From the NCBI RefSeq assembly GCF_016793825.1, contig NZ_JAEULM010000030.1:120491-184490 (forward strand): DNA of 64,000 nt. Reading direction: 5' to 3'. This document shows, piece after piece, positions 4,898-59,893 of this stretch. This DNA comes from Sphingopyxis sp. Lineage in GTDB: Bacteria; Pseudomonadota; Alphaproteobacteria; Sphingomonadales; Sphingomonadaceae. Position 1 is the stretch's first letter. Each line of letters begins with the position of its first letter. The position numbers were made by a program, and so were the translations under genes. Below the pieces are notes generated by a model. It was not told where the DNA came from. It did not search any database and worked only from the letters and a program-made list of their open reading frames with translations.

Positions 4898-6942
4898 TCC
4901 GGTGGCTGGTCGGGGTATGCGCGCTGGCCTTGCCGGCGGTCGCGATGGCACAGGACGAATATAGTGGCGACACTGACTGGACGACGGCCGATCCCGTCGC
5001 TTTCCACAGTCCATATGAAATCGTGGTGCGCGGTGGCTTGCTTCAACGCAATGACGGCGACCTGGTCCAGGACAGCGCAATCCTGACGGATTTGCTTCCC
5101 GGCCTCGGTGTCCGCGTCGAAAACCGCCTGCGCGACGAAGCGGGCCTCGTCCAGTTCCGCCGCTCCGACGGTCGCAGCGCTCATCCAACCAGTCACGGTG
5201 TCACCCTGCGTGGTCTTGGCGGCAATGCGTCGAGTCGCGCGCTGGTAACGCTCGACGGCGTTCCCCAGGCCGATCCGTTCGGCGGCTGGGTCGCGTGGAG
5301 CGCCTATGACGCGATCAACCTTGGCGGAGCGATCATCGCCCGCGGGGGTGGGAGCGGGGTCGATGGACCGGGCGCGCTTGCCGGAACCGTCGGCCTGTAT
5401 TCGACGATCACCGATGGCGCCGACGCAAGCTTCGCTTATGGTGGCCGACAAAGCTGGGACGTTTCGGGATCGGTTGGCGGCAGGGTCGGCACCGGCGCCG
5501 TTGCGATCGATGGTCGCTATGGCCGCGGTGATGGTTTCATCCCGGTCGCGAAGGGGCAGCGCGGGGCCGTCGATCGCGCCGCACCCTATGAACAGGGCGG
5601 GCTTGGCCTGCGCCTGCGTTTCGACACCGGCGGAAACGGCCGCGTCGAAGCAAGCGTGCGTGGGTTTTCGGACCGGCGCGACCGCGGGACCGACTTTACG
5701 CAAAGCAAGGTCGACGGCGTCGATGCGAGTGTCCGGTTCGTTCACGATCCTTATGGTGAAACCCAATGGCTCGCGCTCGGCTATATCCAGCTTCGCGATT
5801 TCGAAAGCGGTTTTGCCAGCGTGGCGGCCGGCCGGAACAGCGTTGTCCCGGCGCTGTTTCAGCGTGTCCCGGCGACGGGGCTGGGAGCCCGCGTCGAGGT
5901 GCGTCCCGGAGTCGATGGAGCAAACCCGCTGCGCGTGGGCCTCGACTGGCGGCGAACGGTCGGCCGCACCGAGGAGGATTTCTTCTTCACCGGCCTGGTA
6001 CCCGGCCGCCACCGGATCGCCGGAGGCAGCAGCGACACGGTCGGCGCCTTCGCCGAATGGACGTCGGGCGAGACGAACTATGGCTTGCTCTGGACGTTGA
6101 GCGGTCGCATCGATCGCTGGTCGCTGGGTGACGGCTATCGGCTCGAACGCAATATCGGCGGATCGGTGATCACCAATCTTGCCTTTGCGTCCCGCAATGG
6201 CTGGGAAGGCAGCGGACGGGCGGGCGTGCGCTGGGCGTCGGACGCCTTTTCGCTCCGTGCCGCGGCGTATCGCGGCTGGCGCCTGCCGACGCTCAACGAA
6301 CTCTATCGTCCGTTTCGCGTCGGCGCGGAGGTGACGACGGCGAATGAGGCGCTGCAACCCGAGCGGCTATGGGGCGGAGAGATCGGGGCGGACTGGCAGC
6401 CGGACGATACCAGGCTGTCGCTGACGCTGTTCGCCAACCATCTGACGAACGCAATCGCCAATGTCACACTCGCGCCGAACCTGAACCAGCGGCAGAATCT
6501 CGATGCGATCGACAGCAAGGGGATCGAGTTGAGCGCCGAACATCGGTGGGGCTTTGCCACGCTGCGCGCGACCTATGCCTATACCGATGCAAAGGTCGAT
6601 GCTTCGGGTGCGGCGCTGGCGCTCGACGGTCGGCGACCGGCGCAGATCGCAAAGCACGGCGGCAGCGTCTCGCTGCGCAGCAACAACAGCGGACCGCTCG
6701 GCGGCTTCGCGACGATGCGGTATATCGGCAGCCAGAATGAGGATGATCTCGGCCTCCTCAAACTCGACGACGCGCTGACGTTCGATGCCGGCTTGTCGTG
6801 GCGCTTCTCCGATAACTTCAGCATCGAGGCGCGCGGCGAGAATATCACGAACGAGCTGGTCCCGGCGGCCATCTCGTCGGCCGGGATCGTCGAGCGCGCG
6901 ACGCCGCGGACGCTGTGGGTCGGTGCGCGCGTCGCATTCTGA
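4894..6942 (+). CDS. TonB-dependent outer-membrane receptor
   Basis: A 682-residue outer-membrane barrel. Start GTG 4894 overlaps the maiA stop and gives the signal peptide MIRWLVGVCALALPAVAMA. The plug domain is recognisable (ILTDLLPGLGVRVENR, RSDGRSAHPTSHGVTLRGLGGNASSRALVTLDGVPQADPFGG), followed by barrel strands and a C-terminal aromatic residue (LWVGARVAF). A TonB box cannot be assigned with certainty. The substrate is unknown. Coupling to maiA may be only positional. Confidence 0.88.
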   Translation: MIRWLVGVCALALPAVAMAQDEYSGDTDWTTADPVAFHSPYEIVVRGGLLQRNDGDLVQDSAILTDLLPGLGVRVENRLRDEAGLVQFRRSDGRSAHPTSHGVTLRGLGGNASSRALVTLDGVPQADPFGGWVAWSAYDAINLGGAIIARGGGSGVDGPGALAGTVGLYSTITDGADASFAYGGRQSWDVSGSVGGRVGTGAVAIDGRYGRGDGFIPVAKGQRGAVDRAAPYEQGGLGLRLRFDTGGNGRVEASVRGFSDRRDRGTDFTQSKVDGVDASVRFVHDPYGETQWLALGYIQLRDFESGFASVAAGRNSVVPALFQRVPATGLGARVEVRPGVDGANPLRVGLDWRRTVGRTEEDFFFTGLVPGRHRIAGGSSDTVGAFAEWTSGETNYGLLWTLSGRIDRWSLGDGYRLERNIGGSVITNLAFASRNGWEGSGRAGVRWASDAFSLRAAAYRGWRLPTLNELYRPFRVGAEVTTANEALQPERLWGGEIGADWQPDDTRLSLTLFANHLTNAIANVTLAPNLNQRQNLDAIDSKGIELSAEHRWGFATLRATYAYTDAKVDASGAALALDGRRPAQIAKHGGSVSLRSNNSGPLGGFATMRYIGSQNEDDLGLLKLDDALTFDAGLSWRFSDNFSIEARGENITNELVPAAISSAGIVERATPRTLWVGARVAF

Positions 6943-7014
6943 CCTTCACAGCCGGGGGAAAAGCGCGATAGGATGACGTACGCCGGAAACGGTGCGTTGG
7001 GGGAAGATCAAGGA

Positions 7015-8598: not shown

Positions 8599-9605
8599 GC
8601 GCGATGCGCCTCCTCGTCGATTTGCTGGCGGGGCGGCGCGGGGCAGCGACGCTGGCTCCGCGCGAGTGGGACGGCGTGATGTCGGTGGCCCGCGCCGAGG
8701 CGATGCTCGCGACGCTCGCGCACAGGCTGGACGGTGCGGATTTGCCGCCGTCGGTCACCACGCTGTTCGCCGACCAGCGCGCAGCGGCGGCCGTCGCGCG
8801 GACCCAGTCGCTGTGGGAAGCCGAAATGGCGCGGCGCGCGCTGGCGAGCGAGCGGATCGAGTTCGTGCTGCTGAAGGGTGCGGCCTATGCCGCCGCCGGC
8901 CTGTCTTGCGCCGAAGGGCGTCAGATCGGTGACCTCGACATCCTCGTCCTCGGTCACGATATCGGGCGGGCCGAGAATGAATTGCTGGAGGCCGGATGGG
9001 AGTGGGTGAAGCCTGACCCCTATGACGACGCCTATTACCGCGAGCATATGCACGAGCTGCCGCCGCTGATCCACAAGGCGCGCGACCGGATGATCGACGT
9101 GCATCACACGATCCTGCCACGGACGCACCGGGTCACGCCCGATCCGCTGGTCCTGATGGCGGAGGCCGTTCAGACCTCCTCCGGCTTCCGCGTGCTCAGT
9201 CCGCCGGCCATGGTCTGCCACTGCGCCGCCCACGTGCTGGCCGACGGCGACCTTCAGGGCGGCTTGCGCAACCTGTGGGATTTCCATCTGCTGGTGACCG
9301 AATTCACCGGCAGGGATACCGGTTTTCAGGCGCAGCTTTTTAAGCAGGCGGCTTTGCACGGCCTCGTCGATGTCGTGAAGCGCGCGCTTCGGTTGTCGCA
9401 CCGCCTGTATGATACGCCGCTGATGCTGGACCAGCGGACGGTCCCGTCGGACGATCTCTTCATACGCCGCCTGCTTGCGCGGGACGATTGGGGACGCCCA
9501 ACGCAATTTGCGCTGCATCAGGCGTTTTACATTCGCTCGCACTGGCTTCGGATGCCGCCGCTCATGCTATCGCGGCATCTTTGGACCAAGTGGCGAAAGC
9601 GCTAG
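8595..9605 (+). CDS. Nucleotidyltransferase family protein (NTP_transf_5-like)
   Basis: A 336-residue protein with the nucleotidyltransferase-5 signature: FVLLKGAAYAAAGL, then RQIGDLDILV with the metal-binding D-x-D. It continues with DVHHTILPRTHRV and a helical C-terminal half. It is the last gene of the MarR-PqqD-HprK run (start GTG 8595 overlaps by 4 nt). Members of this family commonly accompany HprK-related/PqqD-like genes. The transferred nucleotide and target are unknown. Its stop overlaps the convergent gph stop by 4 nt. Confidence 0.8.
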   Translation: MSAMRLLVDLLAGRRGAATLAPREWDGVMSVARAEAMLATLAHRLDGADLPPSVTTLFADQRAAAAVARTQSLWEAEMARRALASERIEFVLLKGAAYAAAGLSCAEGRQIGDLDILVLGHDIGRAENELLEAGWEWVKPDPYDDAYYREHMHELPPLIHKARDRMIDVHHTILPRTHRVTPDPLVLMAEAVQTSSGFRVLSPPAMVCHCAAHVLADGDLQGGLRNLWDFHLLVTEFTGRDTGFQAQLFKQAALHGLVDVVKRALRLSHRLYDTPLMLDQRTVPSDDLFIRRLLARDDWGRPTQFALHQAFYIRSHWLRMPPLMLSRHLWTKWRKR

Positions 9606-49488: not shown

Positions 49489-49518
49489 AAAACCACCTCG
49501 TACCGGAGTACGAGGTGG
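49487..49518 (-). terminator. Terminator facing the prophage
   Basis: Perfect 11-bp stem CCACCTCGTAC (49493-49503) with GTACGAGGTGG (49508-49518), loop CGGA. The T-run (as A6 at 49487-49492) is on the left, so it works for leftward transcripts, that is, transcription coming out of the prophage side. Confidence 0.8.
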
Positions 49519-49655
49519 CCAGGGTCCAGGGAGGACGCGCCCACGTCCTGCGACGGGGCACTGGCCGTGATGGAAAGGGGGAAAACCACGACGGCGTACG
49601 GACAATCTAGGCATTGTCGGCCGGCGTTACAAGGTCTGATAATTGCAAAAGATAC

Positions 49656-49700
49656 TGGTCGGGGAGAGAGGATTCGAACCTCCGGCCCCTGCCTCCCGAA
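49656..49700 (-). other. Attachment-site scar: 3' fragment of tRNA-Pro(CGG)
   Basis: Read on the minus strand this is a tRNA from the anticodon loop (TTCGGGA, anticodon CGG) through the 3' anticodon stem GGCAG, T-arm GGAGG-TTCGAAT-CCTCT, acceptor strand CTCCCCG, then ACCA. The 5' half (acceptor CGGGGAG, D-arm, 5' anticodon stem) is missing on the right, where phage DNA starts. This is what remains of the host tRNA when a phage restores the full gene at its far end. About 150 bp between the terminator (49518) and this point hold no gene that I can see. Confidence 0.85.
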
Positions 49701-49841
49701 AACGATGATCGTCGCCATACTGGCGCGAATCCGTCACTCAATTTCGGTTTTGCGCCCCTCCGATCGCATATGTTCGCGATTCGTCTCACTTCAAGGTTCA
49801 AACCGAACTTAGGAGCACTGTTCCACGGTCGGGTCGCTCTG

Positions 49842-49919
49842 ATGCACATCGACCCCGGCGACTTCACCCCCGAAGCCCTGAAGGCGTTCGCGCACCCCGC
49901 CCCCACAGGTGCAGCATGA
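49842..49919 (+). CDS. Possible small leader ORF
   Basis: A 25-codon frame starting at ATG 49842, ending in an ATGA overlap with the next gene. It has no good ribosome binding site. The frame is open further back through the tRNA fragment, which is not coding. It may be only a coupling leader. Confidence 0.25.
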   Translation: MHIDPGDFTPEALKAFAHPAPTGAA

Positions 49920-50242
49920 CCACCAATGACCGCACGGGGGCGACGCCGGGGCCTTGGATCGCGACAGAGCGCTGTGGATACCATGAAATCCTAGCCCCTG
50001 ACGATGGCTGCGAGTGGTACGGGCGCCCAAATATGCACGCCGTTGCGTACTGCGACACGGAAATTGACGAAGGTGAACAGGAGGCCAACGCCCGCCTGAT
50101 AGCGGCGGCACCTGCTTTGCTTAGCCAACTGCAATACGCGGTAAAACTGCTCGGCGCATTCCCGGCGTTGGGTGGCACAGCCCAAGTCCAGTCGATGCGC
50201 GCCGCCATCGCCCAAGCCACCGGAGGCCACCATGATCTATGA
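49916..50242 (+). CDS. Phage early protein (NARLIAAAP type)
   Basis: A 108-residue protein. TPGPWIATERCGYHEI near the start and EQEANARLIAAAPALLSQLQYAVKLL later match a pattern common in phage early proteins of unknown role. It overlaps the next gene by 11 nt. Confidence 0.75.
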   Translation: MTTNDRTGATPGPWIATERCGYHEILAPDDGCEWYGRPNMHAVAYCDTEIDEGEQEANARLIAAAPALLSQLQYAVKLLGAFPALGGTAQVQSMRAAIAQATGGHHDL

Positions 50243-50411
50243 TCGCGTCTGGCGCTGGCGGGTCAACCTTCCCGAACGTCATGGCCAGCTTTGCCGGATC
50301 GTCGCGCGCGGCAAGATGAATAGCTGCCAGATCGAATTCGAGGACGGCGAGCGCCACATCGTTTCGCGCAATGCAATCCGTAAGATCGCCGGAGGCCACC
50401 ATGAGCGGTGA
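50232..50411 (+). CDS. Small phage protein, SH3-like
   Basis: A 59-residue basic protein, RVNLPERHGQLCRIVARGKMNSCQIEFEDGERHIVSRNAIRKI; its alternating beta pattern suggests an SH3-like fold (inference). GGAGG 6 nt before ATG 50232. The same GCCGGAGGCCACCATGA-like block precedes the next gene. Confidence 0.65.
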   Translation: MIYDRVWRWRVNLPERHGQLCRIVARGKMNSCQIEFEDGERHIVSRNAIRKIAGGHHER

Positions 50412-50592
50412 GCGGGGCGACCTTAAAGCACTGGTAGAGAGAATAGAGGGGGCGCGTTTGGGGGTAGCCGAGAGCTACCAACCGTGTCTCGATCCCAATG
50501 TTGTCGTCGTGGATCGACGTGCGCTCGACAAGCTTCTTGCCGCCACAACAAGTCTCCGTGCCCGTATCTTAAAAGGATCTGATGATGAGTGA
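50401..50592 (+). CDS. Small phage protein, hypothetical
   Basis: A 63-residue protein with helical ends (DLKALVERIEGARLGVAESY, RRALDKLLAATTSLRARIL). ATG 50401 has GGAGG upstream in the same context as the preceding gene. The pattern ALVERIE resembles other phage early proteins. No function known. Confidence 0.65.
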   Translation: MSGERGDLKALVERIEGARLGVAESYQPCLDPNVVVVDRRALDKLLAATTSLRARILKGSDDE

Positions 50593-51040
50593 TCGTGATG
50601 CGCGGGCGTTGCCTGCGGCCCGCGCCGCTACGGCTTCGCCGCCGAGTCCTTCGGTCTCGGGCATAGCTGGCATCGCCAACGCGGAAGATGCGTTGCGATG
50701 CCTGATCCGCTTTCTTGAAGCCGACAGCGGCTCATCGAATGCCGTGCTGCGCGCCGCTGAGATTGCGAGCGCGGCCCTTCCGCCAGAACCCGATGAGCCT
50801 CTCGAGAGTGTCGTTTTCTGGGCCACCGACTTTGGCATCTACGGTCGCGTGTCGATTACGCTTCCCGTGAACAATGGCGGAGACGAACAATTTGACGCCG
50901 ATTTTGAGGACGCGATGGCTTTCGTGAAAGCCGTTGTTGGACGTCGGAAACTCGCCCGACGAAGGAACCCACCCATGACCACTGAACCAACCAAGGAGAT
51001 GATCGCGCTGGCGAGGGAGTGCGCGGAACGCCATGGCTGA
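50582..51040 (+). CDS. Phage hypothetical protein
   Basis: A 152-residue protein: an Ala/Ser-rich N-terminus, a helix-strand middle (EDALRCLIRFLEADSG) and a short acidic-to-basic C-terminal region. It overlaps the previous gene by 11 nt and the next by 8. AAAAGGA precedes the ATGATG start. No recognised domain. Confidence 0.65.
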   Translation: MMSDRDARALPAARAATASPPSPSVSGIAGIANAEDALRCLIRFLEADSGSSNAVLRAAEIASAALPPEPDEPLESVVFWATDFGIYGRVSITLPVNNGGDEQFDADFEDAMAFVKAVVGRRKLARRRNPPMTTEPTKEMIALARECAERHG

Positions 51041-51395
51041 CCTGATCGAACTGCCGCAGCGCTGCACCTGCGCCGAAGTTCTTGGCGAAGACCCGAACTG
51101 TGACCTGCACGGTGTCGCGACCGAGTGGGCGCTTGAAAACATCCTGCCTCGCGATTGGCAGGAGATGGTTTTGGAGCAAGCCGCAGAACTGGAGAAGCTG
51201 GCTCCGCTCGCAATATCCCTGCAAGCGACTGCGGAAGCGGCGGCGCATAGCGCCAGCGAACTCACCGCGCTTAGGGAGCGGGTGGCGGAGTTGGAGGGTG
51301 CCTTGTACGATATCGCGCACTGCCACGAAACTCCCGGTGCAATGCGCGAAAAGGCCCGCGCCCTCCTCGCCCAACAAGGAACGGGACATGCGTGA
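51033..51395 (+). CDS. Phage hypothetical protein with Cys motif and coiled coil
   Basis: A 120-residue protein. An N-terminal CTC-x9-C-x-LH motif (RCTCAEVLGEDPNCDLHG) may bind zinc; residues 50-100 form a likely coiled coil (ELEKLAPLAISLQATAEAA, ELTALRERVAELEGAL). Such chimeric small proteins are common in phage early regions. Confidence 0.65.
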   Translation: MADLIELPQRCTCAEVLGEDPNCDLHGVATEWALENILPRDWQEMVLEQAAELEKLAPLAISLQATAEAAAHSASELTALRERVAELEGALYDIAHCHETPGAMREKARALLAQQGTGHA

Positions 51396-51555
51396 TCCGG
51401 TATTCACGACGCGGGAGGAATTGGAGGCTTGGGAGGAAACGCTGTGTTCACGATCCTACCTCGACAACCCCCGACATGGGCACATCCCGTTCGTGATCCA
51501 GCGCGTCCGAGCCGCCCACGCCCATCTACTCAACCAGGAGAGCGATAATGGATAA
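51388..51555 (+). CDS. Small phage protein, hypothetical
   Basis: A 55-residue protein, MRDPVFTTREELEAWEETLC at the start, then IPFVIQRVRAAHAHLLNQ. ATG 51388 follows GGAACGGGAC and overlaps the previous gene by 8 nt. No function known. Confidence 0.6.
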   Translation: MRDPVFTTREELEAWEETLCSRSYLDNPRHGHIPFVIQRVRAAHAHLLNQESDNG

Positions 51556-51802
51556 GCCTGACGAGCTGGCGGCACCGCAATATGCGGGGTTTGCGCCGTG
51601 CCCCACTTGCAGGCAATACAGCCATAGCCTTGGTGACGACGCGCTGGCGAAAGCTTACATGCACTTCGAGATGATGACTGCGCATCCGGTACGCGGTCAC
51701 CCGATGGGGCATGTTTACGACGACACGACCCGCGATGCCGCGCAAGTGCTCATGGCTGCCGCCCGCGCCGCCCTCTCTGCCGCAGGAGGTGGGGATGAGT
51801 GA
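51548..51802 (+). CDS. Small phage protein with CxxC
   Basis: An 84-residue protein with FAPCPTCRQY near the N-terminus and helical DDTTRDAAQVLMAAARAAL at the end. Overlaps both neighbours by 8 nt. AGGAGAG precedes ATG 51548. No function known. Confidence 0.62.
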   Translation: MDKPDELAAPQYAGFAPCPTCRQYSHSLGDDALAKAYMHFEMMTAHPVRGHPMGHVYDDTTRDAAQVLMAAARAALSAAGGGDE

Positions 51803-52229
51803 TCCTGATACGCTGGTCGATCGCCTGCTTGGCTTCACCTATGATTGGAACGGCTCTGAGATGGCAGACGAGGCGCCCGCGCTGACTGAGGTTAATTGCG
51901 GCTTGCTTCGCGAGGCAGCGCTGCGGATTCGCCAGCTTGAGGGGGTTGGCGGGCAACCGGGATCCCCCAGTCCAAACCCGCCGTCAGCATCATATCAGGC
52001 GCGCGATCCGGTAGCAATGGAGCGAGCGCGACCGAAGTTGCGTTCAGGCGGCTATGTTGGCTTCCCCCGCGACGGGGAACGTGTCTGCGAGACTTGCGAA
52101 GGGACGGGCCACAATCTCGAACGCCAGCGCGACCGATGGGCTGGCTGCGACGTCTGCGAGGGAACTGGCGTCCTGCCTATCACCGATCCGACCAGCAAAT
52201 GGGCGGGAAACCAGATCGGCGAACTCTGA
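51795..52229 (+). CDS. Phage protein with DnaJ-type zinc motif
   Basis: A 144-residue protein. The C-terminal part carries two CxxCxGxG motifs (VCETCEGTG and GCDVCEGTG), as in the DnaJ zinc-finger domain, which suggests binding to unfolded protein or RNA. AGGAGG precedes ATG 51795. Confidence 0.68.
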   Translation: MSDPDTLVDRLLGFTYDWNGSEMADEAPALTEVNCGLLREAALRIRQLEGVGGQPGSPSPNPPSASYQARDPVAMERARPKLRSGGYVGFPRDGERVCETCEGTGHNLERQRDRWAGCDVCEGTGVLPITDPTSKWAGNQIGEL

Positions 52230-52230
52230 C

Positions 52231-52410
52231 GTGAAAGACCGCCTCGTCGCACTCGCACGCGCCGGCGGCTCGCTTCCTTGGGGTAGGTCGGATCCGGCCC
52301 TCCTCGAAAAGCGCCTGATCCGAAAGTACCGCGGGTCATTCGGAGAGGAATACGCCGATCTGACGGGGCGGGGGATGGCCGAGGCGCAGAGGATATTGCG
52401 CAAGGGGTAA
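52231..52410 (+). CDS. Small basic phage protein
   Basis: A 59-residue basic protein from GTG 52231 (KDRLVALARAGGSLPWGRSD, LEKRLIRKYRGSFGEEYADL). No clear ribosome binding site, so it may depend on coupling to the previous gene, which ends 1 nt before. Function unknown. Confidence 0.5.
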   Translation: MKDRLVALARAGGSLPWGRSDPALLEKRLIRKYRGSFGEEYADLTGRGMAEAQRILRKG

Positions 52411-52440
52411 GTGCCGGTCTTTCCCGACTGCCAGGCCGCC

Positions 52441-52545
52441 CTTACCGAAGGGCATAACGTCGCAAGCGACGGCGGGACTTGAATCCGCGCTCTACCAAGT
52501 CTCGGCCAACGAGCCGGAATTGAACCGGCGTTCTCGAAATCAGTA
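52441..52545 (-). other. tRNA-remnant-like hairpin block
   Basis: Read leftward it contains two T-arm-like hairpins: GCCGG-TTCAATT-CCGGC (plus 52513-52529) and GCGGA-TTCAAGT-CCCGC (plus 52472-52488; one mismatch). Between them is ACTTGGTAGAGC, a D-arm-like sequence joined directly to the second T-arm. A CGTCGC-TT-GCGACG hairpin follows (52458-52471). No complete tRNA with an anticodon arm can be folded. The 400 bp from 52411 to 52811 hold no gene. Confidence 0.45.
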
Positions 52546-52721
52546 GCGCCAATGATCGGGAAGCGCAATTCGCGCGCTCGCTTCAGTCAATCTCCAACTA
52601 CAAACTGTAGCATGCTCGAAAACATGGGGCCGGTGTCAAAAAGGCGGTTCCTCAGCGCATCCTCTTTATCATTCTACGAGGTAGGACCCGCAGTTTTCTG
52701 CCGTTTTCCCGCATTTTTTTC

Positions 52722-52749
52722 TTGCAATTTGTTTCGGCGCGCATAGATT
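52722..52749 (+). promoter_or_regulatory. Likely promoter of the hammerhead-containing operon
   Basis: TTGCAA (52722-52727), 16 bp, TAGATT (52744-52749), after a T-rich tract. It lies in the only large gap upstream of the run of genes from 52812 to 56653. Confidence 0.5.
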
Positions 52750-52811
52750 GCCCCTTGTCGCAAGCGCGACCGACTAGCCCCCGTAAGGGGCCTTGTATGA
52801 AAGGACGCATT

Positions 52812-53012
52812 ATGACCCGCGTGGAATATATCACCGTGACCCTTGACCGCGTCGACGCGCAGGGCCGGCCCTTCCAATCCCTTATCCATATCGGCCCCGA
52901 TGGGTGGAGCCAGTCAGGCGACGACCTGGGCGACACCCGCGACATCGCAGAAGCTATCTTTGAGGCGTGCGCCGACGAGCTGGACGCCGAGAGCGAGGAT
53001 TGCACAGCATGA
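52812..53012 (+). CDS. Small phage protein, hypothetical
   Basis: A 66-residue acidic protein with a beta-rich start (TRVEYITVTLDRVDAQGRPF) and helical end (DIAEAIFEACADELDAE). AAAGGA 6 nt before ATG 52812 favours this start over ATG 52797. First gene of the hammerhead operon. Confidence 0.65.
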   Translation: MTRVEYITVTLDRVDAQGRPFQSLIHIGPDGWSQSGDDLGDTRDIAEAIFEACADELDAESEDCTA

Positions 53013-53188
53013 GCCGCTACCTCATCGGTGCCCTGTTCGGCGCTTCGCTCATCCTCTCGCTGCAGGCCTCGTTCTCGCCCCCCATGCCAACCCTAATCGG
53101 CCACGAGTGCGAGGGCTCGGGCGGCGACCTGTGGGCCATGGATGCTCGCGACTTCCCCCGCTGTGACATGATTGAGGAGAACCGCTAA
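53009..53188 (+). CDS. Small membrane or secreted phage protein
   Basis: A 59-residue protein with one hydrophobic segment (YLIGALFGASLILSLQASF) and two cysteines in the C-terminal part. ATGA overlap with the previous gene; TAATG overlap with the next. Could be membrane-anchored. Confidence 0.6.
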   Translation: MSRYLIGALFGASLILSLQASFSPPMPTLIGHECEGSGGDLWAMDARDFPRCDMIEENR

Positions 53189-53412
53189 TGTCCGCTCAGC
53201 TTGAGGCCATGCTGCAAGAGAGCGCAACGCAGGCCGATCTAGCCCGCATGGCCGCTGGCCTGAGCAAGGGCGCCACGCGCCGCCGCTTCAAGGCCTATGC
53301 CGCTCAGCATCACCGCAACGCCGTTGCCATATCCGATGCGCTCTATGGGCCTGTTCCCGCCGAAATACTGGCCATGTCTGACGAGGAGCTAATCGCCACG
53401 CTTACCGCATAG
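53188..53412 (+). CDS. Small helical phage protein
   Basis: A 74-residue helical protein (QLEAMLQESATQADLARMAAGL, MSDEELIATLTA). Its stop codon G is already the first base of stem II of hammerhead A, so ribosome passage and ribozyme folding would compete at this point. Confidence 0.62.
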   Translation: MSAQLEAMLQESATQADLARMAAGLSKGATRRRFKAYAAQHHRNAVAISDALYGPVPAEILAMSDEELIATLTA

Positions 53413-53473
53413 CCGAAACGCCCCCTAGCGGGGCGTCGTGCGCCAGCTCGCCCGCGGCGCGCCTGATGATGGC
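53412..53473 (+). ncRNA. Type II hammerhead ribozyme, copy A
   Basis: Order: stem II 3' strand GCC (53412-53414), GAAA (53415-53418), stem III (53419-53424 with 53430-53435, closed by A53418-T53436), GTC with cleavage after C53437, stem I GTGCGCC (53438-53444) with GGCGCGC (53456-53462), CTGATGA (53463-53469), stem II 5' strand GGC (53471-53473, one bulged T). All core bases are present. Stem II is inverted (GGC/GCC) relative to the other copies, a compensated change. The next gene starts 23 nt later. Confidence 0.88.
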
Positions 53474-53495
53474 AGGGCCTTTGAAAGACTGAACG

Positions 53496-53963
53496 ATGAC
53501 CAATCTTACCGAAACCGCTCGCCTGTTCGCTAATGCCTTTGAGAGCCGCACGCGCGACAATGGCGACGCGTTCCTTGCTCTAAAGGATGGCTCCCCCGAT
53601 TGGATGACCGACGCGCTCTATAACGCGCATGGGGGGATGCTTCCCGACGATCATTGCTATCGGATGGCGAGCGAAGTGGCCGACGCTTTCGCCGAAACAC
53701 TGGAATATGACGCCGACGCCGATCTTGATGACTGGCGGCACGAATCCATTGACGCGATGGTTAGCGTTTATGACGCCGACCGATTCGCGTGGCTGGCGTC
53801 CAATCTGGCGCGCGCCGAATATTGCGATGAGGCGCGGGGGGAGGGGATGGTTTCCGATGACGCCAGCCTTTCCGACCGTATCGCCGCCGGATGGTATCGC
53901 GAGGCCGAAAGCATCTTCGAAGCAATCCGCGCGGCGATCGAAGAGAACGCCGACGACGAATAA
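53496..53963 (+). CDS. Phage hypothetical protein
   Basis: A 155-residue acidic, helical protein (ETARLFANAFESRTRDNGDAF, RMASEVADAFAETLEYDADADLDDW, WYREAESIFEAIRAAIEENAD). It is flanked by hammerheads A and B, so its coding region would be released as a 565-nt RNA (53438-54002). Confidence 0.65.
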   Translation: MTNLTETARLFANAFESRTRDNGDAFLALKDGSPDWMTDALYNAHGGMLPDDHCYRMASEVADAFAETLEYDADADLDDWRHESIDAMVSVYDADRFAWLASNLARAEYCDEARGEGMVSDDASLSDRIAAGWYREAESIFEAIRAAIEENADDE

Positions 53964-53973
53964 CCCCCTTTCC

Positions 53974-54035
53974 GGCGAAACCGGCGCCAACGCGCGCCGG
54001 TCGCAAGGGCATAGCCGCCCCTTGCCTGATGAGCC
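53974..54035 (+). ncRNA. Type II hammerhead ribozyme, copy B
   Basis: Stem II 3' strand GGC (53974-53976), GAAA (53977-53980), stem III CCGGCGC (53981-53987) with GCGCCGG (53994-54000) closed by A53980-T54001, GTC with cleavage after C54002, stem I GCAAGGG (54003-54009) with CCCTTGC (54019-54025), CTGATGA (54026-54032), stem II 5' strand GCC (54033-54035). Every core base matches the hammerhead consensus. TAGGAGG follows 6 nt later. Confidence 0.93.
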
Positions 54036-54057
54036 TGGCTTAGGAGGAATGAACGTC

Positions 54058-54513
54058 ATGGCCAACCGCCTGAAAGCATATGTCCGCCGCACTATCCTTG
54101 ATTCCGCCAAGGAGGGAGCGTGGCCGAAAAGGCGCCGCACCGAGGAAAGCACCCGCATTGCGTTCATGGATGCGATGCGCGGGACCGACACCGGATGGTG
54201 GTCGGACCTCATCTATACCGCCGACATGCTCGAAATGTCCCACCGCTACCGCAACGACATTGCGGCCGCGCTTTCCGAGTATCGGGACGCGAGCGGCGAA
54301 TCCTACACCTATCGCGAGCGCTACAGCGGCGACGGCCCGGATCGCACGGCTGAAGATATCCTCTCGGCCCTGATGCGCCGCAAGGCGTGGACCTATGCCG
54401 AATATCAGGACGCCGAAGCCCCGAGCGCGCCCGTATCGGCTCTCATCGGCTTACGCTTCGCGGTCGAATGGTACGCCGGGGAACTCGCCCGCGAATATTG
54501 CCCCGATCTCTAA
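54058..54513 (+). CDS. Phage hypothetical protein
   Basis: A 151-residue charged protein (MANRLKAYVRRTILDSAKEG, ESTRIAFMDAMRGTDTGWWSDLIYTADMLEM, FAVEWYAGELAREYCPDL). ATG 54058 is chosen over ATG 54049 because AGGAGG sits 10 nt upstream, the same spacing as in the other hammerhead-preceded genes. The coding region would be released as a 548-nt RNA (54003-54550). Confidence 0.65.
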   Translation: MANRLKAYVRRTILDSAKEGAWPKRRRTEESTRIAFMDAMRGTDTGWWSDLIYTADMLEMSHRYRNDIAAALSEYRDASGESYTYRERYSGDGPDRTAEDILSALMRRKAWTYAEYQDAEAPSAPVSALIGLRFAVEWYAGELAREYCPDL

Positions 54514-54521
54514 CCCCCACC

Positions 54522-54583
54522 GGCGAAACCGGCGCCACCGCGCGCCGGTCGCAGGGAACTGGCCGCTCCCTGCCTGATGAGCC
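54522..54583 (+). ncRNA. Type II hammerhead ribozyme, copy C
   Basis: Stem II 3' strand GGC (54522-54524), GAAA (54525-54528), stem III CCGGCGC (54529-54535) with GCGCCGG (54542-54548) closed by A54528-T54549, cleavage after C54550, stem I GCAGGGA (54551-54557) with TCCCTGC (54567-54573), CTGATGA (54574-54580), stem II GCC (54581-54583). Stem I differs from copy B on both strands with pairing kept (compensatory), which supports function. Confidence 0.93.
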
Positions 54584-54604
54584 TGGCCTAGGAGGATTGA
54601 ACCG

Positions 54605-54958
54605 ATGAAATATTTTGTCCGCAATATCGCGACGGCGACGATTACCGAGCTTTGGGTCGCGGAGGCCAATTCGCCCGAGGATGCAATCGAAACGGTTGTT
54701 GCCGGTCACGGGCAGTTCGTCGAACATCTTACCATAGATGACGAGACTAACCGCGCCGAGTTCGAGGCCGATTTGGTCGAGGATTACACGGCCGCCGATC
54801 CGGTTGCAGTCGCGCGCATGGAGACCGCAGCGCCCGCCATGTTCGCTGCCCTGCAAAAGGCAGCCGACGCCCTCACGCCGCCGCGCGGCGCCGAAGAGGC
54901 GGACGCATTGGCTGCGATCGTGGAGGCGATGGGCAAAGCTTCGCGGGGGGAGGCCTGA
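54605..54958 (+). CDS. Phage hypothetical protein
   Basis: A 117-residue acidic protein: an N-terminal beta-alpha unit (MKYFVRNIATATITELWVAE, SPEDAIETVVAGHGQFVEHL) and a C-terminal helix (METAAPAMFAALQKAADAL) with the ETAAPAMFAAL pattern reminiscent of NARLIAAAPALL-type phage proteins. The start has TAGGAGG upstream. Confidence 0.65.
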   Translation: MKYFVRNIATATITELWVAEANSPEDAIETVVAGHGQFVEHLTIDDETNRAEFEADLVEDYTAADPVAVARMETAAPAMFAALQKAADALTPPRGAEEADALAAIVEAMGKASRGEA

Positions 54959-54961
54959 CCG

Positions 54962-55153
54962 ATGGCAAAGCAATTCCATTGCCTCGCCCGCTGGCGTGAC
55001 GAATCGCGCCGGATCATTGACGGCACGACGCTTTGCGAGGCGCACGAGATTATCGTAGCGCCCGACAAGGCCAGCGCCGTTCGGATCATGGCCGACCATG
55101 TGCGCACGGCGAAAGGTTTCGAGCCGCTGCGGATCGAGGCGCGCGCGGCGTAA
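54962..55153 (+). CDS. Small phage protein, hypothetical
   Basis: A 63-residue protein (QFHCLARWRDESRRIIDGTTL, EIIVAPDKASAVRIMADHVRTA). Same alpha/beta flavour as the preceding gene's N-terminus, so the two may be distant relatives. Its stop codon is directly followed by hammerhead D. Confidence 0.62.
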   Translation: MAKQFHCLARWRDESRRIIDGTTLCEAHEIIVAPDKASAVRIMADHVRTAKGFEPLRIEARAA

Positions 55154-55224
55154 GGCGAAACCCTCCCCATCGGTGAAATCGGGGAGGGTCCGGCGCGACT
55201 GATGCAACGTGCCGCTGATGAGCC
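55154..55224 (+). ncRNA. Type II hammerhead ribozyme, copy D
   Basis: Stem II 3' strand GGC (55154-55156), GAAA (55157-55160), stem III CCCTCCCC (55161-55168) with GGGGAGGG (55181-55188) closed by A55160-T55189, cleavage after C55190, stem I CGGCGCG (55191-55197) with CGTGCCG (55208-55214; one G-U pair), CTGATGA (55215-55221), stem II GCC (55222-55224). Stems I and III are unrelated in sequence to copies B and C, yet fully paired. Confidence 0.92.
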
Positions 55225-55245
55225 TGCATCTTGAAGGAACGGACC

Positions 55246-55584
55246 ATGACCACCGACCGAGCACGCCGCGAGCGGATCGCGCGCGCCTATCTTGCCATGC
55301 GCCGCGAGCGCGATTTGCTTATGGGCGCTCTTGCATCTGCCAGCGATTACGCACGGCGCCTGCAATCGCAGCTCGACATTATGACCGATCAGCAGGCCAA
55401 CGCGCGGCGCGCGGCCACTGCGTATATGAAAGAGGGGGAAGCGGCCGACAAGCGCGAGCGAATCGCGCTGGCAAAGCGCCGCCGCGCCGTCCTGACCGCT
55501 CGCGAGTTTCAGCGGCGGCTGTACGCTGAATACAATTTCGTGGACCAGCTGCGCGCCCGCCAACGGGTGAAGGTGGCCGCGTGA
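55246..55584 (+). CDS. Coiled-coil phage protein
   Basis: A 112-residue, highly charged, Arg/Ala-rich helical protein (RARRERIARAYLAMRRERDLL, RRLQSQLDIMTDQQANARRAATAYM, RARQRVKVAA) predicted to be mostly coiled coil. AAGGAA precedes ATG 55246. It overlaps the ligase gene by 4 nt (GTGA). Confidence 0.65.
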   Translation: MTTDRARRERIARAYLAMRRERDLLMGALASASDYARRLQSQLDIMTDQQANARRAATAYMKEGEAADKRERIALAKRRRAVLTAREFQRRLYAEYNFVDQLRARQRVKVAA

Positions 55585-56291
55585 CCCACCATCGCGTTCT
55601 TTCGAGACCGGCCACCCCCATCGGCGCAATAGAAATCAAAAATCGACCTGCCAGCCTCTGCCAGCTCGCCGGCAGATGGTCGGGCAATGTACCCATCGGC
55701 GGAATATCGGGTGAACTGAAGGCTGACGGGTTCCGCGGCCTCTGGTTCGCGGGGCTGGACGGTCAGGCGAGGCTCTGGACGCGCAACGGGCAGGCCATCG
55801 GGGGAATTGAACATCTCGCGCACCGATTGGCGCTGATGGAGCGCGTCGCAGGCGAGCCGATGATGTTCGACGGCGAATATGTCGTGGACGGCACGCTGGC
55901 AGCGACCAAGCGCTGGTGCGAGGCAGGATGGAAGCTCGGCGGCAATGCCGGGACGCTCCACCTGTTCGATGCCATGCCCCTGTCAGATTGGCAGCGTGGG
56001 CGATGCGACATGCGCCAGATCGAACGCAAGGCGCGGCTCGTCGCCATAGCAGGTGAGGCCGCGTCCAGCCCGATCGCATGGGAATGGGCGCCGGGTAGCC
56101 GTGGAGCCTCACCGGGCACCGTGGAAATTCTGGACGACATATGGCTAGAGACGGCAGACGATGTTCGCGACGAGGCGAATCGGGTATGGGCGAGGGGTCT
56201 AGAGGGCCTCATGCTGAAAGACCCCGAAGCGCCCTATGTGCGCGGTCGCGTGTCGTGGTGGGAAAAAGTGAAACGGCCTGGCGCGGCCTGA
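55581..56291 (+). CDS. Compact ATP-dependent DNA ligase-like protein (no OB fold)
   Basis: A 236-residue adenylation domain. Motif I is ELKADGFR with AMP-Lys47, motif III MMFDGE (Glu99), motif IIIa TLHLFDAMPL, motif IV EGLMLKD (Glu208) and motif V WWEKVKR (Lys229, Lys231). The protein ends five residues after motif V, so the OB-fold domain with motif VI found in normal ligases is missing. It may seal nicks with a partner, or make other phosphodiester bonds. Start GTG 55581 overlaps the previous stop. First recognisable enzyme of the early region, downstream of hammerhead D. Confidence 0.8.
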   Translation: MTHHRVLSRPATPIGAIEIKNRPASLCQLAGRWSGNVPIGGISGELKADGFRGLWFAGLDGQARLWTRNGQAIGGIEHLAHRLALMERVAGEPMMFDGEYVVDGTLAATKRWCEAGWKLGGNAGTLHLFDAMPLSDWQRGRCDMRQIERKARLVAIAGEAASSPIAWEWAPGSRGASPGTVEILDDIWLETADDVRDEANRVWARGLEGLMLKDPEAPYVRGRVSWWEKVKRPGAA

Positions 56292-56304
56292 TGCGCCTAG
56301 AAGG
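56265..56304 (+). other. Possible decayed fifth hammerhead
   Basis: The end of the ligase gene reads GTGAAAC-GGCC-x6-GGCC-TGATG-x-GCCT before AGAAGGA. The order GAAA, hairpin, TGATG, GCC and ribosome binding site matches the 3' part of the complete copies, but one helix and the GTC triplet are missing. It cannot cleave. Confidence 0.3.
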
Positions 56305-56314
56305 AATGAACGAC

Positions 56315-56653
56315 ATGACCGACGAAATCATCGCTATCCGCATCGGCCAGAAGGCAGGGCCGAAGATCAAAGCCACCGGGAGAATTTTGGATGAGCTGGA
56401 CATGCCAGCAAGCGCCCGCGACCGCTGGTACGGCGGCATCCTCTACGAGACCGTGGGCGGCGCCTATATCGCGGACAGCATCAACTTCAGCGACATCATC
56501 GGCGAGGACAATTTGCACAATGCGCTCATCCTCTACGCCGACATGCCTGAGCTTGAACGGCAGATCGCGGTGATGGAGCATTTCAACTGGACCCCGCAGG
56601 CGCGCGCCATGGCGAAGCGGTTGGGGTGGAAGCTGGTCGTGGAGGTCGATTGA
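56315..56653 (+). CDS. Phage hypothetical protein
   Basis: A 112-residue protein (TDEIIAIRIGQKAGPKIKATG, RWYGGILYETVGGAYIADSINFSDIIGEDNLHNALILYADMPELE). ATG 56315 lies 10 nt after AGAAGGA, the same spacing as its hammerhead-preceded neighbours; ATG 56306 and 56291 are alternatives. No known domain. Confidence 0.62.
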   Translation: MTDEIIAIRIGQKAGPKIKATGRILDELDMPASARDRWYGGILYETVGGAYIADSINFSDIIGEDNLHNALILYADMPELERQIAVMEHFNWTPQARAMAKRLGWKLVVEVD

Positions 56654-56794
56654 CCCCCTTCGTGGAAATATCGGATCAAGTACCCGTATCGGGGGAATTT
56701 GGGATCAGGACTAACAGCAACTAATCAATGCGCCCCGACTGTGCGCTGATGCTTGTGAATTAGGGAATGGGAGATTTGCGATGGGGAGGGCCGA

Positions 56795-56983
56795 ATGTCA
56801 CATGAAAAGCTGATCGGATGGCCGGTTATCGGTCCTGGGGAAGGGTTTCAGCGCAAAGTGATCGAGGTGAGCGGTGATCGAGCCCGTTGCCAGAGGTTTG
56901 CCCCGTATACTGACGATGTGAAATGGTTCGCTATCGCCGATCTCAAACATGAAGATGGCCGCCCGCTTCGGGCCACCTTCTGA
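56795..56983 (+). CDS. Small phage protein, hypothetical
   Basis: A 62-residue protein, SHEKLIGWPVIGPGEGFQRK, with a short beta-rich body (RCQRFAPYTDDVKWFAIADL). GGGGAGGG precedes the start. The 141 bp before it hold no gene that I can support. Confidence 0.55.
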   Translation: MSHEKLIGWPVIGPGEGFQRKVIEVSGDRARCQRFAPYTDDVKWFAIADLKHEDGRPLRATF

Positions 56984-57139
56984 AACGCAAAAAGCGGCGC
57001 AGGCCGAAGCCCACGCCGCTTCCTCGCGCACAGCCTGTCCCCCGACGCCGGCACGATGCTCATGTATCAATTTCGGACAAAATTTAGCTTTGGACGACTC
57101 GCGACCCCGTGCTCTATCTCCGCTGGGGGAGGAATCGGC

Positions 57140-57667
57140 ATGCGTTTTGCGGTTCTGATAGCGATCTTCGCAGCGACATTTTTCACACCGGCCCATGCCG
57201 GGACATTCCTGATTTCAGGAAGCGCACCGGGACTGATCTATGGAACAGAACGGTGTGAAACGCTTTCCTTCTGCGATGTGACAGAAGCCTTTACACAGAA
57301 TTTCTCGTTCACCGTCGATGGGGATGAAACACTGCCCATCGGGTCGGTTTACTCCTTCACCTATGGCTCCGGGCCGTCGGGCCTTTACAATGGATCGTTC
57401 AGTTCGCTCACCGGGGACGCTTATAAAGCGCTGAACCTTTCCTATGAAATCTACATCAGCGGATGCCCTTTGGGACAGCGGGATTGCTTCCGGCTCGCCT
57501 CGACCAGGGATTTTTCCGTCACGCGACTCTCCCCGGCTCCTGTGCCGGAACCGGCAACATGGGCCATGTTTTTGCTCGGGTTGTTCGCGATCGGCACCGC
57601 AGTGCGACGCGGCAAAACATCAACTCATCCTCAAGGTGTAGTCATAGCGCGCCCGAAAGGCACCTGA
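57140..57667 (+). CDS. PEP-CTERM sorting-domain protein
   Basis: A 175-residue exported protein: signal peptide MRFAVLIAIFAATFFTPAHA, a short beta-rich mature part with two Cys pairs, and the C-terminal sorting signal VPEPATWAMFLLGLFAIGTAVRRGK. Such tails are processed by exosortase/archaeosortase-type transpeptidases of the host. GGGGAGGAA precedes ATG 57140. It lies in the prophage but looks like a host-envelope gene (a moron). The C-terminus overlaps the convergent propeller gene by 48 nt. Confidence 0.85.
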   Translation: MRFAVLIAIFAATFFTPAHAGTFLISGSAPGLIYGTERCETLSFCDVTEAFTQNFSFTVDGDETLPIGSVYSFTYGSGPSGLYNGSFSSLTGDAYKALNLSYEIYISGCPLGQRDCFRLASTRDFSVTRLSPAPVPEPATWAMFLLGLFAIGTAVRRGKTSTHPQGVVIARPKGT

Positions 57668-59893
57668 TCCCCCAAATCCGATGTAGCAAAGGCCGAACAC
57701 CTGCATGTCGGCGCCAAGGACCGTTCCGTTGTCGAGGTCGCCGCCGGGATAACGGCCGATCGTCTGCCACGTTGCTGCGGTCGGATTGCTCGGATTGAAA
57801 TCGATGCACCGATGGAGACCACGCACGCCGGACAAGCCCCCCCAGGCATAGATCGCCGGATAGCCGGCACCGGGCGCGGCCTTGCCGAATGCGAAGTCCA
57901 GCGGCTCGTTCATATCGCCGGTCCAATCGACCCACGTCGCGCCCTGGTCGGCGCTGAACGAAATGCCGAAGTTAGCGTGCGTATCGTCAGCGTCAACGTC
58001 GCCGGGGCAATAGAAGAGGTGTGGCGACTTGCCGGGTGGCATCCGCAGTTTGCAGTTGTAGGCGTCAATTGTATAATCGATTCCGATTCCTGCGCCGCTG
58101 CTCGTGATCAGCCCACTACGAATGCGCGTCCAGTTTTCGCCGCCGTCGGTGGATTTCCAGAAACCGCGAAATTGTTGGCTTGCCGCGTCATGAGCCTGAT
58201 TGCCGACGTGGTAGAGATAGAAGGTGCCGGCGTTCTGCTTGTCGGCGATCAGTTGAAGCCGCTGATAGCTGTACTGGTTATGCCAGCGCATCCCCGTACT
58301 CGGGGGGACTTCGCCGCCAAACTTGCAATAGGCCCACGTCGCCCCGCCGTCCTTGGTAAAGCTGGGGATGTTGTTGCCGGTGGGAAGCCAGACGACGTTG
58401 CCCGGTGCCCCGACCGCCACATTGCCGCCAAACCCTTGGCCGCCCGTCGCTGGCTGTCCGCCTGTTGGCAGCACATTCGCGGGCACGTTCGTGAAAGGCG
58501 TCCAGCTCGCCCCGCCGTTCGACGAGTAATTGCCGCGCCCGTTCTTCGAACTGACGACCGCCAGCCAGTTTTCATCGCCCGCCGCGTGATCGATGCCGCC
58601 GCCGTGATCCAGCGCCTCGACGTTCGTCACCCCAGCGTTGGCGGGATACTGGTTCCACTGGCTGCGCTCGCGCGTGAGGACGTTCCTGTCCTGCGACAGA
58701 TAATGGATGCGGCCATTGAGCGGTGGAACGAGTATCTGCATCGACACGAGGTTTTCGATGCCGACGCTGTCTTCCAGAAAGGTAGGGATCGCGCCATCGA
58801 GCGGCGGGTTGTTGCACTTCCAGCAGCCGATGCCCTCGGCGAGAAAGATGGCGTTGGAATCGGTGTCCCAGACGACGGCGCCATTCGACATGTAATTTTC
58901 GTTCGTCGTCTGGTGCCAGGGGATGTTGACGGCCTGCCGCCCGACGCTTGGGCACAGACCGGAGAAGCTGGCGCCGCTGTTGCTCGAAGCGCGATAGGCG
59001 CTGGACCCGATCATGCTGATGAACTTCGTTCCGTCGGGCGAGATGGCGAGATGCTTGGTGTCCGTGACGCCGGCCACGTCTGCCCAGCCGCCTCCCGGCG
59101 TCCATTTGCGCAACTGCGCCTGGTTCGACTGTGACGTTCCCCCGGTCCACAGCGCGCCGTTGCGGGCGAGCATGTGCCCGATATCGGTGGGGGAGCCGGA
59201 AATCAGCGTGAAAGTGCCGCTGACGCCGGTCGTCGAGCGATAGATGCCATTGCCGTATGACCAGACATAGACGTGGTTCGTCCTGCCGCTCGTCGTGCCG
59301 CTTTCAGGATCGAAGGTCACGGCCATGCCGCGATCCTTGTCGTTGACCACCTGAAGCGGCGCGGGGATGTCGGGATGGCTGACCCATGTGTCGCCGCCGT
59401 CGAGCGTGTATTTGAACCCGCCTGCGGCGCTCACATCGGGAGGGCCGAAGCCGACGACAAGATGATTGGCCGGATCGACGTTCATCCGTTCGTTACAGGT
59501 GCGCGAACCGCTGTTGGCGCCGTAATTGTTATAGACGGGAAGCGTTGTCCGCACCCAGCTCGCGCCGCGATCGGGCGAGCGGTACACATAGCCGACCTGG
59601 CAGATGTACACATAGTTCGTGTTCGACGGCGCGACGCAAACGTCATAGCAGCCGGCGCCGCGGTCGTAGCTATACTTCATCAGGCTTTCAGAGATGTTGA
59701 TCTCTGCCTGAAGCAAGAGGCGCCATTCGGTATCGTTCGGCCCGCGGATATAGCCGCCGCAGGTATCTGTGCGGCAAACCAGAACCTTTTGATTGCCGGT
59801 GCCCGCGATGCGCAGGCCGGTGACATATCCGCCGCCGCCAAGGCGCACGCGCTCATATTTCGATCCGCCGAGGATTGTGCCGCCGTTCCTCAT
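57620..59893 (-). CDS. GH74-like beta-propeller protein (tail-associated)
   Basis: A 757-residue protein. The N-terminus (YERVRLGGGGYVTGLRIAG, VCRTDTCGGYIRG) matches the start of GH74 xyloglucanases (GGGxVTG, RTDxGGxY). At least five Asp-box/BNR motifs follow (SPDRGASW, SSNGGASW, TKDGGATW, STDGGENW, SADQGATW), fitting a two-propeller glycanase. In a prophage tail region it probably binds or cuts a surface polysaccharide. Whether the catalytic Asp pair is present cannot be judged by eye. It is the last leftward late gene; ATG 59893 overlaps the upstream gene by 4 nt. Confidence 0.8.
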   Translation of the reverse strand: MRNGGTILGGSKYERVRLGGGGYVTGLRIAGTGNQKVLVCRTDTCGGYIRGPNDTEWRLLLQAEINISESLMKYSYDRGAGCYDVCVAPSNTNYVYICQVGYVYRSPDRGASWVRTTLPVYNNYGANSGSRTCNERMNVDPANHLVVGFGPPDVSAAGGFKYTLDGGDTWVSHPDIPAPLQVVNDKDRGMAVTFDPESGTTSGRTNHVYVWSYGNGIYRSTTGVSGTFTLISGSPTDIGHMLARNGALWTGGTSQSNQAQLRKWTPGGGWADVAGVTDTKHLAISPDGTKFISMIGSSAYRASSNSGASFSGLCPSVGRQAVNIPWHQTTNENYMSNGAVVWDTDSNAIFLAEGIGCWKCNNPPLDGAIPTFLEDSVGIENLVSMQILVPPLNGRIHYLSQDRNVLTRERSQWNQYPANAGVTNVEALDHGGGIDHAAGDENWLAVVSSKNGRGNYSSNGGASWTPFTNVPANVLPTGGQPATGGQGFGGNVAVGAPGNVVWLPTGNNIPSFTKDGGATWAYCKFGGEVPPSTGMRWHNQYSYQRLQLIADKQNAGTFYLYHVGNQAHDAASQQFRGFWKSTDGGENWTRIRSGLITSSGAGIGIDYTIDAYNCKLRMPPGKSPHLFYCPGDVDADDTHANFGISFSADQGATWVDWTGDMNEPLDFAFGKAAPGAGYPAIYAWGGLSGVRGLHRCIDFNPSNPTAATWQTIGRYPGGDLDNGTVLGADMQVFGLCYIGFGGSGAFRARYDYTLRMS

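Follow-up and report, generated by a model that had tools for sequence, protein, structure and literature searches.

The hammerhead array

We have analysed a stretch of DNA from Sphingopyxis sp. (assembly GCF_016793825.1, contig NZ_JAEULM010000030.1, forward strand, positions 120,491-184,490; 64,000 nucleotides (nt), hereafter called the window), and observed in it four type II hammerhead ribozyme motifs, HH1 to HH4, which lie on the same (+) strand within 1.8 kb, in the gaps between consecutive genes. HH1 (53412-53478) follows a gene for 74 amino acids (53188-53412) without a family match, whose stop codon overlaps the ribozyme, such that base 1 of HH1 is the final base of that codon. Gene A (53496-53963; 155 amino acids) lies between HH1 and HH2 (53974-54040), gene B (54058-54513; 151 amino acids, with an alternative in-frame ATG at 54049) between HH2 and HH3 (54522-54588), and genes C1 (54605-54958) and C2 (54962-55153), which together occupy 54605-55153, between HH3 and HH4 (55154-55230). 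HH4 begins immediately after a stop codon and is followed by gene D (55246-55584), which gave no family match, and by an ATP-dependent DNA ligase-like gene (55581-56291) that overlaps gene D. All of these genes are on the + strand, and no ribozyme lies inside either of the close or overlapping pairs, C1-C2 and D-ligase.

Direct reading of the four segments gave one order of elements throughout: the 3' strand of stem II, GAAA, a stem III hairpin closed by A15.1-U16.1, UC, a stem I hairpin of 7 base pairs, CUGAUGA, and the 5' strand of stem II. The core (C3 U G A N G A9, G12 A A A15.1 and U16.1 H17) is complete in all four copies, each of which has closed stems I and III, an open stem II and standard pairing; in HH1 an extra U at position 53470 has to be passed before stem II pairs. 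The elements of HH1 are stem II (53412-53414/53471-53473), GAAA (53415-53418), stem I (53438-53444/53456-53462) and CUGAUGA (53463-53469); those of HH2 are stem II (53974-53976/54033-54035), stem I (54003-54009/54019-54025) and CUGAUGA (54026-54032). CUGAUGA is at 54574-54580 in HH3, a near-duplicate of HH2, and at 55215-55221 in HH4. An earlier note on this DNA had placed four hammerheads here, with cuts after 53437, 54002, 54550 and 55190. The segments are indeed present, on the + strand and with their elements in the order claimed, and the cut positions are exact. The same note held that every invariant base is found in all four copies; the bases are all there, but HH1 does not have a textbook core, its extra U having gone unremarked. 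We infer from these features that HH1 to HH4 would cleave themselves after C17.

Recognition by Rfam and by descriptor

When the region 49500-57500 was searched by E-value with the Rfam model RF02276 (Hammerhead_II), matches were obtained solely at these four places, all on the + strand: 55153-55235 for HH4 (36.1 bits, E 1.5e-4), 53411-53481 for HH1 (34.7 bits, E 3.4e-4), 53974-54034 for HH2 (31.9 bits, E 1.9e-3) and 54521-54592 for HH3 (29.9 bits, E 6.4e-3), the E-values being computed for 8001 bases against 4227 families. The covariance-model check proposed in the earlier note thus gave four matches that are significant by E-value, none of which reaches the curated gathering cut-off of 37 bits; a scan of the window at the curated thresholds returned two tRNAs only, and no hammerhead. 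The RF02276 cut-off is a threshold and not a structural feature, and across the whole genome HH1 to HH4 took ranks 1 to 4, with the next match at 20.7 bits. Together with the core and the stems, these scores support the identity of the four motifs as type II hammerheads. In the structure line of RF02276 the C preceding GAAA is unpaired, and the two bases ahead of that C are paired with the G and C following CUGAUGA; the stem II register of the model thus looks one position off the canonical one, which may depress the scores of genuine copies.

A strict descriptor of our own, applied to the window, found HH2, HH3 and HH4, and missed HH1 because of its extra U, which separates A9 from stem II. 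As a control, two runs of 50 shuffled windows gave one match with stems I and III totalling at least 10 pairs and one match of any kind, respectively.

Pseudoknots and compensatory changes

In all four copies, loop I can pair with the bases directly 3' of stem II through at least 4 Watson-Crick pairs. The predicted pairings are GCCC/GGGC in HH1 (53450-53453/53475-53478), AGCC/GGCU in HH2 (3' strand at 54037-54040), GGCC/GGCC in HH3 (3' strand at 54585-54588) and GAUGCA/UGCAUC in HH4 (55201-55206/55225-55230). A pseudoknot of at least 4 Watson-Crick pairs was also present in 39% of the 202 unique copies (out of 220) from viral contigs in the census described below, as compared with 16% (maximum 21%) when the partners were re-dealt. 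When G-U pairs were permitted, the excess was clear in canonical copies (77% versus 56% in the control), and no excess was seen in copies of the +1 form (80% versus 76%).

Comparison of HH2 with HH3, which are 90% identical, was informative with regard to the fold. These two copies differ at 9 of 76 positions, and six of the nine differences, placed on the fold by hand, make three compensatory pairs: from HH2 to HH3, an A-U pair of stem I becomes G-C, a G-C pair of stem I becomes A-U, and an A-U pair of the pseudoknot becomes G-C. The remaining three are in loops. We therefore conclude that the fold, beyond mere sequence, has been maintained inside the array.

Related arrays in phages and bacterial genomes

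The pattern of canonical copies was found in at least 120 stretches of viral contigs and in 80 stretches of genome contigs, and our own descriptors gave 302 canonical copies and 56 copies of the +1 form in 206 loci. These counts are incomplete and partly dependent, since the viral set is a lower bound and some loci are duplicates (L029 and L133 are both phage Hank144). Among Alphaproteobacteria, RF02276 matches at E <= 1e-3 occurred in 4 of 385 genomes, the present one included. No convincing match was found in 59 relatives; a match of 27.1 bits in one of them (L009) was discarded, as it lies, judged by eye, inside an apparent coding gene.

Of 156 locus-strands, 61 carried two or more copies and 28 carried at least four, the maximum being ten; copies on both strands were seen at a single census locus. 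The Streptomyces phages R4 and Hank144 have nine copies each in a stretch of 12-13 kb. Descriptors for the other permutations, which lacked a positive control, gave one type I and two type III candidates in the same loci, and one of the latter (L015) proved to be assembled from two adjacent type II copies. At the Rfam cut-offs, 13 array loci yielded 66 Hammerhead_II matches and none from other hammerhead families. Because the loci had been selected by the type II pattern, this type purity applies only to the further members of each array. In an alignment that we made of 60 hammerhead sequences, the GTC is out of register.

There were several side observations at these loci. In each of two viral contigs (L015 and L079), a single intergenic gap contains a direct tandem of two hammerheads at a distance of 66-67 nt. 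The annotated tiny genes 75.1, 67.1 and 60.1 of R4 (3898-3999, 6855-6947 and 9227-9310) fall on hammerheads and are unlikely to be real. For the OCR-like gene 72 of the same phage, the annotated start (5240) lies ahead of a hammerhead at 5260-5317, so that the true start is probably downstream of the hammerhead.

Position between stop and start codons

We examined the position of 306 canonical copies, with R4 and L133 excluded. A start codon followed within 110 nt in 292 of the 303 copies that had enough sequence, at a distance from the end of stem II of 22, 26 and 30 nt (quartiles). A Shine-Dalgarno-like site was present for 209 of these 303 copies and for 231 of 918 random positions, the choice of start favouring such sites in both sets. 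On the other side, an upstream stop codon was found for 267 of 286 copies, at a median of 6 nt before G12, and it fell within -3 to 15 nt of G12 in 64% of the 286, compared with 8% of 1530 random positions. The window copies follow the same habit: their stops are 2-13 nt before G12, the ends of stem II are 21-22 nt before the start codons, and the pseudoknots of HH2 and HH3 end one base ahead of an AGGAGG (54042-54047 for gene B, 54590-54595 for C1). The hammerhead fills almost the entire intergenic stretch. Since the hammerheads hug the upstream stop as closely as the next start, position alone cannot separate a leader role from a role at the 3' end of the preceding mRNA.

Copies within one array can be up to 98% identical, whereas the genes that they lead are at background identity (about 0.25), as are the 40 nt upstream (0.60). 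This suggests that the ribozyme, rather than the gene, may be the unit that multiplies.

The +1 core form

The insertion in HH1 proved to be recurrent. In 56 copies, of 52 distinct sequences, from 30 of the 206 loci, A9 is separated from stem II by exactly one additional nucleotide, which is U in 48, A in 7 and C in 1. Insertions of two or three nucleotides at this place were absent from the 206 loci, and Markov shuffles of each locus gave no +1 form. Canonical copies are also carried by 28 of the 30 locus-strands that bear +1 copies. In R4, six of the nine copies have the +1 form and all nine score above the Rfam cut-off, from which it follows that the Rfam model at least tolerates this form. 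Given the recurrence of this form in other loci, HH1 is probably active and not decayed.

The (+) hammerhead of Chrysanthemum chlorotic mottle viroid, reportedly described by De la Pena and Flores in 2001, is said to have an extra A between A9 and helix II, with a mild effect. The position of the extra nucleotide is like that in HH1. The nucleotide itself differs, being A in the viroid and U in HH1 and in 48 of the 56 census cases, and the two hammerheads also differ in permutation and biology. For the catalysis of hammerheads, the recurrent +1 form raises a concrete question of structure. The hammerhead insertions A6a, U13a and 2a/2b are given by Perreault et al. 2011 (PMC3088659); in the passages of the main text considered here, an insertion after A9 and before stem II was not met.

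Genes between the ribozymes and setting of the array

For gene A the sole match was a weak one, to an ocr-like family of anti-restriction proteins (E 0.016), and no clear Shine-Dalgarno sequence precedes it. Gene B matched DUF7222 (E 4.7e-5), under the Pfam cut-off. Neither gene had a match in phages; gene A had no relative in the viral contigs, and gene B none in the genome contigs. Among 296 genomes of the order, gene A was found only in its own genome and gene B in one other (E 9.8e-4). Structure models of the two proteins had a mean predicted local distance difference test score (pLDDT) of 43-44. When the array proteins were compared with those of the other hammerhead loci, the ligase was the sole match.

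The ocr-like match of gene A, and the OCR-like genes in R4 and Hank144, had hinted at a special link with anti-restriction, as had the ardA cases of Perreault et al. 2011 (PMC3088659). We compared, by Pfam, 150 led proteins (from 187 cluster representatives, mostly short ones being omitted, of 267 proteins of at least 40 amino acids) with non-led neighbours of at least 60 amino acids, for which 150 clusters were taken at random out of 595; the gene calling behind both sets is crude. Anti-restriction families were matched by 3/150 of the led proteins (ArdA 2, ArdC 1) and by 1/150 of the non-led ones (ArdA 1), and we dropped the idea for lack of a clear excess. Among the best-scoring families (for Pfam, the best 25 of 28 in the control; for PHROGs, the best 25 of 93 and the best 25 of 94), the non-led neighbours include integrase, terminase, primase, holin and endolysin. 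In the same selection the led genes look mainly accessory, tail protein and GemA being included.

The array belongs to a run of + strand genes at about 49.9-56.7 kb, with a gap ahead of 52.7 kb. An attachment-like 3' fragment of tRNA-Pro lies at 49652-49700 on the - strand; its segment 49652-49687 matches, at 94.4%, the annotated attachment site in the tRNA-Pro of Paracoccus phage vB_PyeM_Pyei1, and the fragment is likely to be the left attachment site of a putative prophage. Among the genes on the opposite strand from 57.6 kb are those for a BNR-repeat protein (just below the Pfam cut-off) and a member of a phage family without assigned function. No integrase was found among the proteins scanned; the contig stops at the window end, and the right end of the putative prophage is not seen in it. 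The gap preceding the array operon contains, at 52512-52544 on the - strand, a weak match to the 3' end of transfer-messenger RNA (E 4.9e-4; 17.8 bits against a cut-off of 47), which may be what is left of an attachment site or of a tRNA-like end.

Discussion

In the interpretation that we favour, to which we give a probability of roughly 0.6, the four pseudoknotted type II hammerheads are self-cleaving intergenic leaders that would provide each accessory gene with its own mRNA and a defined 5' end. The most likely role of the array is the cutting of one transcript into gene-sized mRNAs. Each hammerhead would fold during synthesis of the polycistronic RNA and cut after C17, and successive cuts would release pieces of 565, 548 and 640 nt. 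The upstream piece would end in the stem III hairpin and a 2',3'-cyclic phosphate, and the downstream piece would begin with a 5'-OH and the stem I hairpin, its start codon being about 55 nt further. The downstream gene would be the main beneficiary, gaining a short fixed leader without upstream sequence and without a 5' phosphate. By the logic of the fold, the type II permutation suits this role because it alone among the three classical permutations keeps both new ends closed by a hairpin. Synthetic biology has a man-made counterpart of such leaders in its ribozyme insulators.

The Rfam scores and genome rank of HH1 to HH4, the pseudoknots in four of four copies, the compensation between HH2 and HH3, the spacing from stop and start codons, the restriction of copies to one strand at all census loci but one, and the cleavage of arrays of this kind seen by Perreault et al. 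2011 (PMC3088659) all speak for self-cleaving leaders. Several points weigh on the other side. The Rfam scores are below the curated cut-off, and the activity of the four motifs is something that we infer from their sequences. HH1 has the core insertion, and the gene behind it lacks a clear Shine-Dalgarno sequence. The hammerheads are equally close to the upstream stop, so that position fails to single out the leader role. The leader 3' of the ribozyme is equally alike whether or not the same-array ribozymes are more alike (0.54, 0.51, 0.54). Lastly, no sigma-70-like promoters were found in 52400-57700, as compared with 1.6 expected in shuffles, although this says little in this bacterial group.

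The closeness to the upstream stop is what sustains the strongest alternative, in which the ribozymes serve the upstream gene: the 3' end of its mRNA would be sealed against exonucleases by the stem III hairpin and cyclic phosphate, as a substitute for a terminator. The strong stem III hairpin in four of four copies also fits such a role. Yet this proposal leaves the tight distance to the start codon unexplained, and copies without a led gene (11 of 303) or without an upstream gene end (19 of 286) are both few, such that neither side is clearly dispensable. We regard it as unlikely.

Possibly, the repeats act chiefly as DNA, either as homologous linkers at gene boundaries for the swapping of cassettes or as self-spreading elements. 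The near-identity of copies within arrays, set beside genes and upstream sequences at background, is in keeping with this proposal, as is the fact that the array genes, the ligase excepted, are not common to other loci. However, the compensatory changes preserve fold over sequence, and both core and strand are conserved. As the chief function a DNA role therefore appears improbable to us, and it can be a second role alongside cleavage.

Still less probable is the formation of circular mRNAs from the gene-length pieces, either by religation with a fitting stem II or by the host RtcB. The end chemistry and the fold would permit it, the piece between two type II copies has both ribozyme halves at its ends, and the idea was raised by Perreault et al. 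2011 (PMC3088659), in whose experiments spliced or circular products were not detectable. We found, however, that stem II of neighbouring copies fitted in 101 of 151 cases, a share no higher than that for all ordered same-array pairs, neighbours included (520 of 758), a comparison that addresses religation and not the RtcB route. For lack of enrichment among neighbours, religation was dropped as the principal interpretation.

That the motifs are chance resemblances or decayed, inactive hammerheads, as the sub-threshold Rfam scores and the core insertion in one copy might suggest, is scarcely credible in view of one descriptor match in 50 shuffled windows against three in the window, the compensatory changes, and the reappearance of the insertion in other phages.

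Returning to the leader interpretation, we propose, tentatively and as a joint claim that we hold to be less probable than its failure, that a gene-insulation system built from type-pure arrays of pseudoknotted type II hammerheads is widespread in phages; in it, a leader module multiplies inside a genome independently of genes, the accessory genes are swappable in any order and the +1 form, with its single extra U (or A), is a regular part. The module would sit against the preceding stop codon, so that a ribosome terminating there would lie over stem II and might hold back the cut until the upstream gene has been translated. The module would end just ahead of the next ribosome-binding site, and genes swapped in would still obtain their own mRNA.

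The earlier note had thought a series of hammerheads after consecutive genes unusual. The same arrangement is on record in Perreault et al. 2011 (PMC3088659), who reported that prophage genes, singly or in short blocks, often have multiple hammerheads at their flanks, proposed the processing of long phage transcripts to gene-length mRNAs, and saw three arrays cleave in vitro and one in E. coli; the present census adds many more. Their clusters (a triple in Agrobacterium tumefaciens, and those of Azorhizobium caulinodans and Clostridium scindens) resemble ours in having close, same-orientation hammerheads that flank genes, and in the processing idea attached to them. The pairing of loop I with downstream sequence, which that paper describes as common in type II, is likewise shared by HH1 to HH4. 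The Sphingopyxis array differs in host and genes, and in having four copies, all of type II and one with the +1 insertion, whereas the figure legend in that paper covers types I, II or III. The arrangement has thus been known since 2011, and the Sphingopyxis array is a good new alphaproteobacterial example of it. The arrays of R4 and Hank144 are similar to it in placing type II hammerheads between consecutive same-strand genes and in mixing canonical and +1 forms, and differ in copy number, in their unrelated genes and, for R4, in having every copy above the Rfam cut-off. Our literature search, which left most subscription journals outside its scope, returned no paper that describes hammerhead arrays of Streptomyces phages, and none on the recurrent +1 form. 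The one paper that combines hammerheads with Streptomyces phages (PMC9239200) states that aminoglycosides, which are Streptomyces products, block phage infection early, and cites them as binding a hammerhead ribozyme; the Streptomyces phage arrays might conceivably have a part in this effect.

The purpose of phage hammerheads was still called unknown in a 2023 paper. The census brings to that question a marked habit of stop codon, hammerhead and start codon in close succession, and two named phages, R4 and Hank144, that allow a direct test. If the leader interpretation is true, phages would have evolved the ribozyme insulator independently, and some phage operons would be sets of separate mRNAs.

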